From assembly GCA_026992075.1 (NCBI GenBank), contig JALXAM010000038.1, positions 62,001 to 126,000 on the forward strand: 64,000 nt of DNA, read 5' to 3'. The notes beneath the pieces were generated by a model, which was not told where the DNA came from, made no database searches, and was given only the letters and a program-made list of their open reading frames with translations. Shown here in pieces: positions 17,545 through 53,395 of the stretch; the stretch's first letter is position 1, and each line of letters starts with the position of its first letter. The position numbers were made by a program, and so were the translations under genes. The DNA is from Sedimenticola sp. Its GTDB lineage: Bacteria > Pseudomonadota > Gammaproteobacteria > Chromatiales > Chromatiaceae.

Positions 17545-17594
17545 TTCAGGAATTCGTTTTGCAAACCAGGCAAAAACACCCTGTCCGCTTGTAA

Positions 17595-17700
17595 GCCGCT
17601 GTCCCGATGTTCGTAGCGGGGCTTCGGCAGCAGGGATGCTGCCGCAGAGCCTACAGGGATGTATTCACGGCGTCCCCGCTACAAACATCGGGACAGCGGC
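17595..17700 (+). repeat. Variable-arm palindromic element, copy B
   Basis: 27-bp arms at 17595-17621 and 17674-17700 (26 of 27 complementary) flank a 52-bp core nearly identical to copy A. The arm middle reads TCCCGATGTTCGTA, against GCCGACCCTTGGTG in copy C, while each partner arm changes to match. The downstream flank CCGGAAAGCCTTTGG resembles that of copy A. It lies between the convergent MazG-like and esterase genes; the remainder of 17545-17732 shows no gene. Confidence 0.88.
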
Positions 17701-17732
17701 GCCCGGAAAGCCTTTGGGCCATCGAGACCGGA

Positions 17733-23116: not shown

Positions 23117-25138
23117 ATGAAGCCCTCTACCCAAGTCACCACCCTCCCCAGCACCCTGCGCAAGCGCGACGGCAGCCTCGTCCCCTTCGACAGCCGCAAG
23201 ATCCACTCCGCCATCGCCCGCGCGGGACGGGCCACCGGCGAGTTCGGCGAGGACGAGGCGGGCCTGCTCACCGCCCAGGTGGTGAAGGTGCTGAGCCACC
23301 TGCCGGGCGTGCCCGAGGTGGAGCGCATCCAGGACATCGTGGAGCAGACCCTCATCTCGGCCAACCACTTCCGCACCGCCCGCGCCTACATCGTCTACCG
23401 TGAACAGCACGAGCGGCTGCGCCAGGACCGCCAGACCCTGGTGGACGTGGCCGCCTCGGTGAACGAGTACCTCGACCGCAGCGACTGGCGGGTGTCGGCC
23501 AACGCCAACCAGGGCTACTCGCTGGGCGGCCTCATCCTCAACACCTCGGGCAAGGTGATCGCCAACTACTGGCTGAGCCACGTCTACCCGCCCGAGATCG
23601 GCCGCGCCCACCGCGAGGCCGACTTCCACATCCACGACCTGGACATGCTCTCGGGCTATTGCGCCGGCTGGTCGCTGCGCACCCTGCTCCACGAGGGGCT
23701 CAACGGCGTGCCGGGCAAGGTGGAGGCGGGACCGCCGAAACACATGTCCTCGGCGGTGGGCCAGATCGTCAACTTCCTCGGCACCCTGCAGAACGAATGG
23801 GCCGGCGCCCAGGCCTTCAGCTCCTTCGACACCTACATGGCCCCCTTCGTGCGCAAGGACCGACTGGACTACCCCCAGGTGCGCCAGTACATCCAGGAGC
23901 TGATCTACAACCTCAACGTCCCCTCCCGCTGGGGCACCCAGACCCCCTTCACCAACCTCACCTTCGACTGGGTCTGCCCCGAGGATCTGCGCGACCAGGT
24001 GCCGGTGATCGGCGGCGAGGAGATGCCCTTCACCTACGGCGAGCTGCAGCACGAGATGGACCTTATCAACCGCGCCTACATCGAGGTGATGAGCGCCGGC
24101 GACGCGAAGGGACGGGTCTTCACCTTCCCCATCCCCACCTACAACATCACGCCCGACTTCCCCTGGGAGAGCGAGAACGCCGAGCTCCTGTTCGAGATGA
24201 CCGCCAAGTACGGCCTTCCCTACTTCCAGAACTTCCTCAACTCGGAGCTCAAGCCCAACATGGTGCGCTCCATGTGCTGCCGCCTGCAGCTCGACCTGCG
24301 CGAGCTGCTCAAGCGGGGCAACGGCCTCTTCGGCTCGGCGGAACAGACCGGCTCCCTGGGCGTGGTGACCCTCAACTGCGCCCGCCTCGGCTACCTGCAC
24401 CGGGGCGACGAGCAGGGGCTCTACGCCCGCCTGGACGAGCTGCTGGAGCTGGCCCGCAACAGCCTGGAGATCAAGCGCAAGGTGATCCAGCGCCACATGG
24501 ATGCCGGCCTCTTCCCCTACACCAAACGTTACCTCGGCACCCTGCGCAACCACTTCTCCACCATCGGCGTCAACGGCATCAACGAGATGATCCGCAACTT
24601 CACCAGCGACGCCCACGACATCACCGACGAGTGGGGCCACGACTTCGCCTGCCGCCTCCTCGACCACATCCGGGCGCGGATGGTGGCCTTCCAGGAGGCC
24701 ACCGGCAACCTCTACAACCTGGAGGCCACACCGGCGGAAGGCACCACCTACCGATTCGCCAAGGAGGACCGCAAGCGCTGGCCCGACATCCTCCAGGCCG
24801 GCACGCCCGAGAAGCCCTACTACACCAACAGCTCCCAGCTCCCGGTGGGCTACACCGACGACCCCTTCGAGGCGCTGGCGATGCAGGAGGAACTCCAGTC
24901 GAAGTACACCGGCGGCACCGTGCTCCACCTCTACATGAGCGAACGCCTCTCCTCCGCCGACGCCTGCCGGCGGCTGGTGAGGCGGGCGCTGGAGAACTTC
25001 CGCCTCCCCTACATCACCGTCACCCCCACCTTCTCCATCTGCCCGAAACACGGCTACCTGGAGGGGGAGCACGAGTTCTGCCCCAAGTGCGACCAGGAAC
25101 TCATCGCCCGGAAGAAGGCTGCCCATGCCACCGCCTGA
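23117..25138 (+). CDS. nrdD: Anaerobic ribonucleoside-triphosphate reductase, large part lacking the glycyl-radical segment
   Basis: Class III ribonucleotide reductase, which makes dNTPs without oxygen. It has 673 residues: an ATP-cone (about residues 14-105, LRKRDGSLVPFDSRKI) and the 10-stranded barrel. One active-site cysteine is in SGYCAGW (about 182), and the thiyl-radical candidate is in RSMCCRLQLD (387/388). The C-terminal zinc site is CPKH...CPKC (C642, H645, C655, C658). The frame stops 18 residues after C658, where family members continue into the glycyl-radical loop. That loop is encoded by the separate ORF at 25564. The radical would then have to be supplied in trans. Confidence 0.93.
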   Translation: MKPSTQVTTLPSTLRKRDGSLVPFDSRKIHSAIARAGRATGEFGEDEAGLLTAQVVKVLSHLPGVPEVERIQDIVEQTLISANHFRTARAYIVYREQHERLRQDRQTLVDVAASVNEYLDRSDWRVSANANQGYSLGGLILNTSGKVIANYWLSHVYPPEIGRAHREADFHIHDLDMLSGYCAGWSLRTLLHEGLNGVPGKVEAGPPKHMSSAVGQIVNFLGTLQNEWAGAQAFSSFDTYMAPFVRKDRLDYPQVRQYIQELIYNLNVPSRWGTQTPFTNLTFDWVCPEDLRDQVPVIGGEEMPFTYGELQHEMDLINRAYIEVMSAGDAKGRVFTFPIPTYNITPDFPWESENAELLFEMTAKYGLPYFQNFLNSELKPNMVRSMCCRLQLDLRELLKRGNGLFGSAEQTGSLGVVTLNCARLGYLHRGDEQGLYARLDELLELARNSLEIKRKVIQRHMDAGLFPYTKRYLGTLRNHFSTIGVNGINEMIRNFTSDAHDITDEWGHDFACRLLDHIRARMVAFQEATGNLYNLEATPAEGTTYRFAKEDRKRWPDILQAGTPEKPYYTNSSQLPVGYTDDPFEALAMQEELQSKYTGGTVLHLYMSERLSSADACRRLVRRALENFRLPYITVTPTFSICPKHGYLEGEHEFCPKCDQELIARKKAAHATA

Positions 25139-25148
25139 TACCCCTTTC

Positions 25149-25170
25149 GTAGGTCGGGCTTCAGCCCGAC
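25149..25170 (+). repeat. GTAG REP, left half of a compound repeat
   Basis: GTAGGTCGGGCTTCAGCCCG plus AC, followed by AGAACAACC. Its inverted partner is at 25499-25520. It begins 10 bases after the nrdD stop. Confidence 0.8.
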
Positions 25171-25193
25171 AGAACAACCTGTTGCGCCGGAAG

Positions 25194-25299
25194 GCCGCTG
25201 GCCGACCCTTGGTGGCGGGGTTTCGGCAGCAGGGATGCTGCCGCAAAGCCTACAGGGAGGTATTCACGGCGTCCCCGCCACCAAGGGTCGGCCAGCGGC
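25194..25299 (+). repeat. Variable-arm palindromic element, copy C
   Basis: Arms 25194-25220 and 25273-25299 are perfectly complementary (27 of 27, extending to 28 with the next pair) around a 52-bp core that differs from copy B at only a few bases. It lies between nrdD and its detached glycyl-radical ORF, inside the REP pair. The tail GCGAAAGCATTGG follows. Confidence 0.9.
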
Positions 25300-25369
25300 C
25301 CTCGCGAAAGCATTGGAATCATCATGCCTGGTTGCCGGGCTTTGGCCGGGCAACTGAAACGCTTTCGGG

Positions 25370-25475
25370 GCCGGCGGAGGGGAGCTTGTAGCGGGAACGC
25401 CGTGAATACATCCCTGTAGGCTCCGCCTCGGCATCCCTGCCTCGGAGGTCCCGCTACAAGCCCCCCTCCGCCGGC
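25370..25475 (-). repeat. Variable-arm palindromic element, copy D (inverted)
   Basis: Same 27/52/27 layout on the opposite strand: arms 25370-25396 and 25449-25475 (26 of 27 complementary). The core read on the minus strand ends in GAGCCTACAGGGATGTATTC plus ACGGCGT. The inner hairpin differs from copies A-C (GAGGCAGGGATGCCGAGG). The minus-strand tail contains CGAAAGCGTTTC, like the other copies. 25300-25369 between C and D holds no gene. Confidence 0.88.
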
Positions 25476-25498
25476 CTACAGGCACTGTTGGTTGTTCT

Positions 25499-25520
25499 GT
25501 CGGACGGAAGACCAGCCTAC
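25499..25520 (-). repeat. GTAG REP, right half of the compound repeat
   Basis: On the minus strand this reads GTAGGCTGGTCTTCCGTCCG plus AC, followed by AGAACAACC, the same 9-base extension as the REP at 25149. The two face each other and enclose copies C and D. Confidence 0.72.
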
Positions 25521-25563: not shown

Positions 25564-25722
25564 ATGCAACAACAAACCATCACGCTCAAAGACGAAGAAC
25601 GCACCCGCTGCGAGATCTGGACCCGGGTGATGGGCTACCACCGCCCTGTCACCTCCTTCAACCCCGGCAAGCAGTCGGAATACCGCGAACGGCAGGTATT
25701 CGTGGAATCCAAGACTCGTTGA
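25564..25722 (+). CDS. Detached glycyl-radical segment of anaerobic ribonucleotide reductase
   Basis: A 52-residue ORF with a good ribosome binding site (CGGAGGA). It contains TRVMGYHRPVTSFNPGKQSE, which lines up with the C-terminus of NrdD proteins (in E. coli RxCGY, then FNAGKQEE). Gly24 is the predicted radical glycine. The larger nrdD ORF ends just before this motif, so the two together make one complete NrdD. nrdG, which would generate the radical, follows 97 bases downstream. Whether the fragment works as a free polypeptide is inference. I believe similar short ORFs occur next to nrdD elsewhere, but could not check. Confidence 0.88.
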   Translation: MQQQTITLKDEERTRCEIWTRVMGYHRPVTSFNPGKQSEYRERQVFVESKTR

Positions 25723-25723
25723 C

Positions 25724-25804
25724 GTAGGAGCGCCGTCCCCGGCGCGAACCCGGAACGCGGTACCCGGTGCCGTTGTCCGTTCGGCGCGGGGACGCGCCTC
25801 CTAC
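25724..25804. repeat. Second-type GTAG REP pair
   Basis: GTAGGAGCGCCGTCCCCGGC (25724 onward) faces GCGGGGACGCGCCTCCTAC (ending 25804), with 31 bases between. The palindrome differs from the GTAGGTCGGGC type. It begins 2 bases after the glycyl-radical ORF stop and ends 15 bases before nrdG. Confidence 0.8.
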
Positions 25805-25819
25805 AGGGATTCCTTCACC

Positions 25820-26443
25820 ATGCGCATCGGCGGCTTCGTTCCCTTCACCTCAATCGATTACCCCGGCGAGCTGGCGGCGGTGGTCTTCTGCCAGGGGTGT
25901 CCCTGGCGCTGCGGCTACTGCCACAACCCCCACCTGCTGCCGGCCCGTGGCAGCGAGCTGCTCGACTGGCGGGCGCTGCTCAAGATACTGGAGCAGCGGC
26001 GCGGACTGCTGGACGCCGTGGTCTTCAGCGGCGGCGAGCCCACCCTGCAGGGCAGCTTGCCGGAGGCGATGCGGCAAGTGAAGGCGCTGGGCTTCAAGGT
26101 GGGCCTCCACACCGCCGGCTGCTACCCCCGCCGCCTGGAACGGCTGCTGCCGCTGGTGGACTGGGTGGGACTGGACATCAAGGATCTGCCGCCCCACTAC
26201 CCGGCCCTCACCGGCGTTCCCGGCAGCGGCGAGCGCGCCTGGAAGGGCCTGGAGCTGGTGTGTGCCAGCGGGATTCCTTTCGAGGTGCGCACCACCCTGG
26301 GGCCCCACCTGCCCGAAGAGCGGCTGTCGCAAATCGAAACGGTGTTGAAGGAAAAGCGGGTTCCCCGTCACCGCCTGCAGCCGCTCAACCCGCTGCCAGC
26401 AACTGGCGAAGGGCCGCCTCCAGGTGGGGGTAAGCAAAGGTGA
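25820..26443 (+). CDS. nrdG: Anaerobic ribonucleotide reductase activating protein
   Basis: Radical SAM enzyme that cleaves SAM to abstract a hydrogen from the NrdD glycine. It has 207 residues. The iron-sulfur motif is VVFCQGCPWRCGYCHNPHLL, where CPWRCGYC gives the CxxxCxxC spacing, followed by SGGEPTLQGSL and the TIM-barrel strand GLHTAGCYPRR, then GLDIKD. This fits the short NrdG-like activases. Because NrdD's glycine lies in a separate peptide, NrdG's immediate substrate may be that peptide docked on the large subunit. The C-terminus overlaps the convergent epimerase gene by 59 bases. Confidence 0.93.
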   Translation: MRIGGFVPFTSIDYPGELAAVVFCQGCPWRCGYCHNPHLLPARGSELLDWRALLKILEQRRGLLDAVVFSGGEPTLQGSLPEAMRQVKALGFKVGLHTAGCYPRRLERLLPLVDWVGLDIKDLPPHYPALTGVPGSGERAWKGLELVCASGIPFEVRTTLGPHLPEERLSQIETVLKEKRVPRHRLQPLNPLPATGEGPPPGGGKQR

Positions 26444-27278: not shown

Positions 27279-27335
27279 CTGACCGTTCTCCCAGGGGTGC
27301 TTCCCCACCCGGTCGATCAACGACCTTTCCTGAGA

Positions 27336-27432
27336 CCGGAAGGGGGTGTTCCAGAAAACGGCCGAGGCAGGATGCCGAGGCCGAGCCTACAGGGATGTAT
27401 TCACGGCGGTTTTCTGGAATACCCCCTTCCGG
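27336..27432 (+). repeat. Variable-arm palindromic element, copy E
   Basis: Arms of 24 bp (27336-27359 and 27409-27432; 23 of 24 complementary, the exception a G-U pair) around a 49-bp core with GAGCCTACAGGGATGTATTC. The arm sequence (CCGGAAGGGGGTGTTCCAG...) is unrelated to those of copies A-D. It lies between the epimerase and hslV start regions. Confidence 0.85.
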
Positions 27433-27456
27433 CCGCCCCCGGATGAGCCGCTCAAG

Positions 27457-30713: not shown

Positions 30714-30921
30714 GCCGGTGGGGACTCCTTCCTGGCGGGGACGCCGTGAATACATCCCTGTAGGCTTTGCGGCAGCTTTGTAGCTTCGCAATCCATGTTA
30801 CGCTACAAAGTCCAGCCTCGCCATCCTTGGCGAGGCGTTCGCCAGCTGCGAAAATCCACTGGATTTTCGGTCTGGCTCACCCCTGCTGCCGAAACCCCGC
30901 CAGGAAGGAGTCCCCACCGGC
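30714..30921 (-). repeat. Variable-arm palindromic element, copy F, with a 102-bp internal insertion
   Basis: Arms 30714-30740 and 30895-30921 are perfectly complementary (27 of 27). The core, on the minus strand, is 154 bp instead of 52. The inner hairpin is split after GCGGCAGC (30776) by a block with three further hairpins: CTTTGTAGC...GCTACAAAG (30776-30810), GCCTCGCCATCCTTGGCGAG (30815 onward) and CGAAAATCCACTGGATTTTC (30849 onward). CTGCTGCCGAAA then resumes the core. Confidence 0.85.
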
Positions 30922-52955: not shown

Positions 52956-53312
52956 TCAGCGCTTGATGGGGCGCCGCGGTCCCTTGCGGGTACGGGCGTT
53001 GGTCTTGGTCCGCTGGCCACGCACCGGCAGCCCGCGGCGGTGGCGGATCCCGCGATTGCAGCCCAGGTCCATCAGGCGCTTGATGTTCATCGAGATCTCC
53101 CGCCGCAGATCGCCCTCCACCGTGTACTTGGCCACCTCGGCGCGCAGGCGATCCACCTCCTCTTCGCTCAGGTCCATAACCTTGCGATCGCGGGGCACTC
53201 CTGCGTCGTCGCAGATCTTCGCCGCACGCGAGCGGCCGATGCCGTAAATGGATGTCAGCGCAATGACCGCGTGCTTGCGGTCAGGAATGTTGACGCCTGC
53301 TATGCGGGCCAT
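52956..53312 (-). CDS. rpsM: 30S ribosomal protein S13
   Basis: 118 residues: [34 protein letters not shown] (in part), [21 protein letters not shown] and a basic end. First gene of the alpha operon, preceded by a strong sigma-70-type promoter (53367-53395) and an AGGAGA ribosome site. Confidence 0.98.
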
Positions 53313-53366
53313 TCTCTTTTCTCCTGTGATTCAACTTCCAGCGCAACCGGCGCGAGGAAACGCGAA

Positions 53367-53395
53367 ATTATAACCGGGTGCGCCAGGCCTTTCAA
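53367..53395 (-). promoter_or_regulatory. Sigma-70-type promoter of the alpha (rpsM-rplQ) operon
   Basis: On the minus strand: TTGAAA (53395-53390), exactly 17 bases, then TATAAT (53372-53367). It lies in the 97-bp gap between rpmJ and rpsM. The predicted leader is about 50 nt before the rpsM ATG, shorter than the E. coli alpha leader that S4 binds. Confidence 0.78.

Follow-up and report, generated by a model that had tools for sequence, protein, structure and literature searches.

The block at positions 25149-25520 of the analysed window (the whole stretch of 64,000 nucleotides from Sedimenticola sp.) is a composite repeat bounded by REPs, in which two copies of a structured element face each other, and with moderate confidence we take these to be copies of an old Gammaproteobacterial RNA element which probably acts as a set of CsrA sites. 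The sequence-only reading of this stretch had described two facing GTAG REPs, each extended by AGAACAACC, around two oppositely oriented elements C and D, and the arrangement REP, C, inverted D, inverted REP is indeed present at 25149-25520 with all of its parts in place. That the block sits between nrdD and a separate glycyl-radical ORF is confirmed by ORF coordinates and profile matches. The features of the block, its neighbouring genes and the further copies in the window are as follows:

23117-25138, + strand: nrdD, coding for the ATP cone and the catalytic domain but not for the glycyl-radical end (PF13597 positions 2-529; PF03477)
25149-25170, + strand: left GTAG REP, GTAGGTCGGGCTTCAGCCCGAC, exact genome consensus (contig position C38:87149-87170, 0 mismatches)
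25171-25179, + strand: AGAACAACC extension, the first part of the REP-to-element flank
25193-25300, + strand: element C (subclass 1, 127.2 bits), outer stem P1 25193-25220 with 25273-25300, 28 of 28 pairs
25224-25243, + strand: hairpin P2 of C, loop AGGGAT at 25231-25236
25248-25270, + strand: hairpin P3 of C, GCC TAC AGGGAG GTA TTCAC GGC, loop at 25254-25259
25301-25368, no strand: spacer between C and D, with a small palindrome GTTGCC..GGCAAC at 25331-25354
25369-25476, - strand: element D (subclass 2, 117.9 bits), outer stem of 27 Watson-Crick pairs and 1 G.U
25399-25421, - strand: hairpin P3 of D, exact TACAGGGATGTA, loop at 25410-25415
25426-25445, - strand: hairpin P2 of D, loop AGGGAT at 25433-25438
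25490-25498, - strand: GGTTGTTCT, the inverted AGAACAACC extension
25499-25520, - strand: right REP, an inverted and decayed copy
25564-25722, + strand: separate NrdD glycyl-radical ORF (...RVMGYHRP...; PF13597 positions 532-562)
25820-26443, + strand: nrdG-like radical SAM activase
1072-1179, + strand: further element copy
17594-17701, + strand: further element copy
27331-27437, + strand: further element copy, GTTTTC/GAAAAC subclass
30739-30794, - strand: core of a longer element variant that has additional GGA hairpins

The repeat family and its fold

The core TACAGGGATGTATTCACGGCG is matched 6 times in the window, where 0.00 matches are expected, and 71 times in the 2.7 Mb genome, where the reversed control pattern has 0. 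The arms of C form an inverted repeat of 31 nt at 97% and those of D one of 34 nt at 91%, and the predicted fold of the block is much more stable than those of shuffled sequences (z -15). A chance origin of the block is rejected on these core counts and on the comparison of its fold with the shuffles.

When aligned on the core, 51 full copies of the genome are gap-free over 108 columns and share one architecture, in which an outer stem P1 of 28 pairs encloses the hairpins P2 (e.g. CGGCAGC AGGGAT GCTGCCG) and P3 (e.g. GCC TAC AGGGAT GTA TTCAC GGC) to form a three-way junction. P1 is near-perfectly paired within each copy and differs in sequence between copies. Among these 51 elements 94% of the cells are paired and double changes occur in 31 of 41 pairs, a level which none of 500 shuffles reached, and the pairing signal collapses in slid controls on the same alignment. 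RNAalifold recovers the identical three-way junction without guidance. The stem of P3 is nearly invariant and thus shows little covariation. When the sequences are folded singly by minimum energy, both hairpins appear together in no more than 13 of the 51 own elements and 14 of 50 elements from many genera. A covariance model search of the genome gave 97 hits, part of them being opposite-strand echoes of one copy.

Subclass 1 (C, 25193-25300) can also be folded with a P2 lengthened by GGGTTT/AAAGCC; this structure beats the canonical junction by 4 kcal/mol and disrupts P3, and element C could therefore be bistable. A longer variant of the element, seen at 30739-30794 of the window and at ten further loci, carries extra GGA-loop hairpins (e.g. 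GCCTCGCCAAGGATGGCGAGGC) 5' of the core, giving at least three GGA hairpins per element.

The loops and the CsrA/RsmE motif

The P3 hairpin reads TACANGGANGTA, and the loops of both hairpins have the form ANGGAN. Throughout the 71 copies of TACANGGANGTA the base before GGA is distributed as 61/5/4/1 and the base after it as 49/8/7/7, the rest being nearly fixed. The published RsmE motif is (A/U)CANGGANG(U/A), and the SELEX consensus of CsrA is RUACARGGAUGU (PMC6692469, PMC7652899); TACANGGANGTA equals the former and nearly matches the latter, and its two freely varying positions are the two N's of the RsmE motif. When the P3 loop was left unconstrained in six genomes, about 142 of 150 among the matches listed were still ANGGAN. 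The wide set was searched with a pattern that does not contain the P2 hairpin; among the matches listed, its P2 loop reads A(N)GGA in 97 of 104 cases, which have 74 different stems.

A GGA-to-GGA distance of 23 nt is shared by 60 of 62 own elements and by 83 of 106 elements elsewhere. CsrA bridges sites which are 10-63 nt apart, best at more than 18 (PMC7652899), and the 23-nt spacing can suit bridging by one CsrA/RsmA dimer. A single CsrA is encoded in the genome and is nearly identical to E. coli CsrA (58 residues aligned, 99.8 bits). Given the sequences of the loops, CsrA binding would be their best explanation. CsrA is found in 33 of 36 genomes with the element and in 280 of 333 without it, which is no clear correlation. 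One genome that is 85% complete (G387) holds 44 near-identical cores, and CsrA was not found in it; either the assembly lacks the gene or the element is maintained there in the absence of CsrA.

Strand under selection

Outer-stem mismatches were scored by a strand-blind rule. Read on the GGA strand they are G.U in 212 cases versus A.C in 43, and 79 versus 20 over 46 dissimilar arms. As neutral double-stranded DNA would give equal numbers of both, it is the GGA strand that is selected, as a folded single strand. The excess of G.U is weak in the own genome (42 versus 35 over all pairs, 27 versus 10 over the inner 22 pairs), which is expected if the copies are young. RNA fits this folded strand best owing to the CsrA motif, but single-stranded DNA would tolerate G.T too, as G.T is better tolerated than A.C in folded DNA.

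Gene context

According to a simple gene caller, the elements of this genome lie between convergent genes in 19 cases versus 5 between divergent ones. No orientation bias exists in tandem gene pairs (++/-- 13/16 in the own genome and 22/26 elsewhere), and promoter -10 sequences are not enriched upstream of the elements (12 versus 10 mirrored), on which count an independent sRNA driven by a promoter of its own seems less likely. A reading as intrinsic terminator was rejected, as the base profile shows no T-run after the outer stem, and so was a 3'-UTR element in one fixed orientation, given the missing tandem-pair bias. The absence of an orientation bias and of a promoter or T-run signal is the main weakness of the RNA reading and argues against a purely sense 3'-UTR element.

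REPs, RAYT and the spread of composite units

The REP consensus GTAGGTCGGGCTTCAGCCCGAC has 259 copies in the genome at up to 3 mismatches and 0 in the reversed control. A left REP with GTAG outside accompanies 26 of 71 elements, at a gap of 19-23 nt in 25 of the 26, and a right REP accompanies 31 of 71, at a gap of 17-21 or 29-32 nt; the chance expectation for a REP flank is about 0.5% per side. REPs occur on both sides of 19 of the 71 elements, no recognisable REP on 33, and a GAACAACC-like flank is present in 9 of the 26 elements with a left REP. Facing doublets were found at four loci, three of them subclass 1 versus subclass 2 and the fourth a long variant versus subclass 2. The nesting of elements in REPs that had been proposed for this block thus recurs, with fixed distances, a shared layout and facing doublets at four loci, and the fixed spacing argues that REP-element-REP units spread as units.

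The genome was searched for a RAYT gene, and a 150-aa ORF with MPDHFHALI was found, with REPs at C28:2309, 2830 and 2872 around C28:2414-2737. Spacing and gene content suggest that the composite may be mobilised by the REP/RAYT system. Neither a dedicated transposase nor target duplications were found, and the nrdD site has no obvious duplication. The block resembles GTAG REP dimers or REPINs with a RAYT in its inverted REPs with GTAG outside, in the RAYT gene lying between REPs and in the location near gene 3' ends. Published REP dimers, however, have spacers of mostly 20-100 bp (PMC3733652), whereas here 328 bp lie between the REPs and hold two structured elements of another family.

Distribution and known relatives

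A scan of public genomes with TACANGGANGTANTYNCGGCGT gave, among the matches listed, Xanthomonas, Stenotrophomonas, Halopseudomonas, Alcanivorax, Marinobacter, Methylomonas, Rheinheimera, Ectothiorhodospira, Yersinia and others. For 50 elements from many genera 92% pairing was obtained, with a covariation of 0.755 versus 0.18 in shuffles, and each of the 27 pairs in P1 and P2 has double changes. The invariance of P3 in these sets is partly imposed by the search pattern, and looser matches with paired changes in P3 occur in Rheinheimera (TATAGGGACATA) and Neiella (TCCATGGAAGGA and CACATGGACGTG). In a sample of the class, 36 of 369 genomes from many families had a match. The highest core counts at up to 2 mismatches were 544 in Methylotuvimicrobium buryatense 5G (G059/G293) and 278 in Xanthomonas sp. 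LMG 31884 (G056); Y. similis has 64 and Microbulbifer 57. Within the present genus the copy number ranges from 0 to 68.

On sequence grounds, the family is one that occurs across the Gammaproteobacteria; the Yersinia repeat YPAL/RU-2, which Rfam lists as the sRNA Ysr224 (RF02770), is a member of it. The published Y. pestis sequence has the core TACATGGATGTATTTACGGCGT and a CCAAGGATGG hairpin (PMC2759123), and YPAL/RU-2 likewise is intergenic, has a long internal inverted repeat and is present in tens of copies. The superfamily trait of a P3 core with a GGA hairpin 23 nt upstream is found in the window cores; another trait is a target site duplication of 3-26 bp. The window copies differ from YPAL/RU-2 in their other arms, their AGGGAN loops and their position inside a REP pair. 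RF02770 gives a Y. similis copy 126.5 bits and the window copies 23.3 and 21.2 bits, under the curated cut-off of 70; the window copies are therefore assigned to the wider superfamily and not to RF02770. YPAL is reported to be cotranscribed with upstream genes, with a possible effect on RNA stability, and both target duplications and empty sites have been described (PMC2229807). Ysr224 is described as temperature-responsive and is among the 20 most prevalent sRNA families (PMC9029176), and for Y. ruckeri several copies that differ in expression are reported (PMC12112432). No paper tying the YPAL/Ysr224 family to CsrA or RsmA was found in the open-access literature.

The Rfam model of Ysr224 (compared at L160 7888-7994) is built on the complement of the strand that bears the conserved GGA motif, which also weighs against the CsrA reading, and does not include the complete outer stem; the family may need to be rebuilt. 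Within the block no Rfam family reaches its gathering score. Elsewhere in the window an Alpha operon ribosome binding site (RF00140) was detected at 53280-53386 on the - strand with 41.4 bits.

Several GGA-loop hairpins with the CsrA/RsmE consensus as motif are shared with the CsrA-sequestering RNAs of the CsrB/RsmZ type. In contrast to these, the present family has two sites per element, many scattered copies and no own promoter that could be seen, and no CsrB/RsmZ family matched the block at E up to 10. The TwoAYGGAY RNA motif (Weinberg et al. 2010) has, going by its name, two hairpins with AYGGAY loops. It is listed for human gut, Gammaproteobacteria and Clostridiales (PMC2864571), but matches neither the block (E up to 10) nor 18 related loci (gathering cut-off).

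Proposed role of the elements

We propose that the two inverted GTAG REPs, which would be recognised by the RAYT of the genome, enclose the facing elements C and D, each a predicted three-way junction in which two short hairpins, their ANGGAN loops 23 nt apart, are enclosed by a long outer stem whose sequence is free to vary. A transcript that crosses an element in the GGA orientation would bind CsrA on both loops. The copies might then serve as docking sites or decoys for CsrA on transcripts, in most cases close to gene 3' ends, where they may protect or destabilise the RNA.

CsrA is regarded as being controlled mainly by a small set of dedicated RNAs, CsrB among them. We tentatively suggest, as a possibility that we would not yet call probable, that mobile repeats present throughout the Gammaproteobacteria in tens to more than 500 copies per genome constitute dispersed high-affinity CsrA/RsmA sites, either because the element exploits CsrA or because hosts have made of it a distributed CsrA buffer. 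If hundreds of mobile repeats carry the optimal CsrA site, the result would be a large, rapidly evolving pool which sets the level of free CsrA, shapes CsrA control of neighbouring transcripts and differs between close relatives (0 to 68 copies within the genus). YPAL/Ysr224, among the most often annotated sRNA families, would then gain a testable binding partner.

Alternative explanations and the nrdD locus

The elements could instead be mobile units at the DNA level, in which the GGA strand folds as single-stranded DNA and the loops are read by a transposase (RAYT/IS200-like or unknown) without any RNA function. The very uneven copy number within one genus, the association with REPs, the lack of an orientation bias to genes, the tolerance of G.T in folded DNA and the target duplications and empty sites of YPAL (PMC2229807) all agree with such units. 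We nevertheless regard this as unlikely, if a serious competitor, because the constraint on the loops matches the CsrA motif even in which two positions are free, and because neither target duplications nor a dedicated transposase were detected here. To our knowledge, no transposase is known to read ANGGAN hexaloops, which is also counted against DNA units. The elements might also be generic 3'-UTR hairpins whose GGA loops are incidental and which stabilise mRNA or block exonucleases, a role that has been proposed for REP and YPAL. This would account for the excess of convergent over divergent gene pairs in the own genome and for the reported cotranscription of YPAL with upstream genes and its possible effect on RNA stability (PMC2229807). 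Such hairpins, however, leave unexplained why short loops are fixed when stems of 20-30 bp change freely, and why the spacing of 23 nt is fixed. Furthermore, the absence of an orientation bias together with the annotation of Ysr224 on the other strand speaks against a simple 3'-UTR role, and we judge this explanation to be improbable.

Least credible, and in our view scarcely tenable, is that the block was made by one larger inverted duplication or by an insertion that split nrdD, both of which the sequence-only reading had raised. An inverted repeat does connect the two halves of the block, with arms of 133 nt at 72% complementarity; the proposed mirror symmetry holds as a resemblance between family members but not as one long palindrome, since two different subclasses face each other. 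As C and D differ in subclass and arms, and these subclasses are found together at other loci, a recent duplication is unsupported and the inverted duplication was rejected. A split of nrdD by the insert is contradicted by six relatives (G003, G005, G006, G009, G010 and G013), in which the glycyl-radical ORF is already separate: it abuts the NrdD stop or follows it closely, and no repeat intervenes. The repeat thus colonised a pre-existing gap, the other course that had been considered. In other relatives the gap holds a tandem GTAGGAGCGGC repeat (G011) or a REP pair without an element (G004, G008). Because the closest relatives have other repeats or nothing there, the order of insertion is not readable at the nrdD site.

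In all genomes of the genus in which the region was found, one ORF codes for the body of NrdD and a second one for its glycyl-radical tail; in several of these genomes the second ORF abuts the NrdD stop or overlaps it. At 25724-25806 of the window, between the glycyl-radical ORF and nrdG, there is another REP-like inverted pair (GTAGGAGCGCCG... / ...GCGCCTCCTAC), unrelated to the first, and the tandem GTAGGAGCGGC... that fills the gap in G011 is related to this pair.
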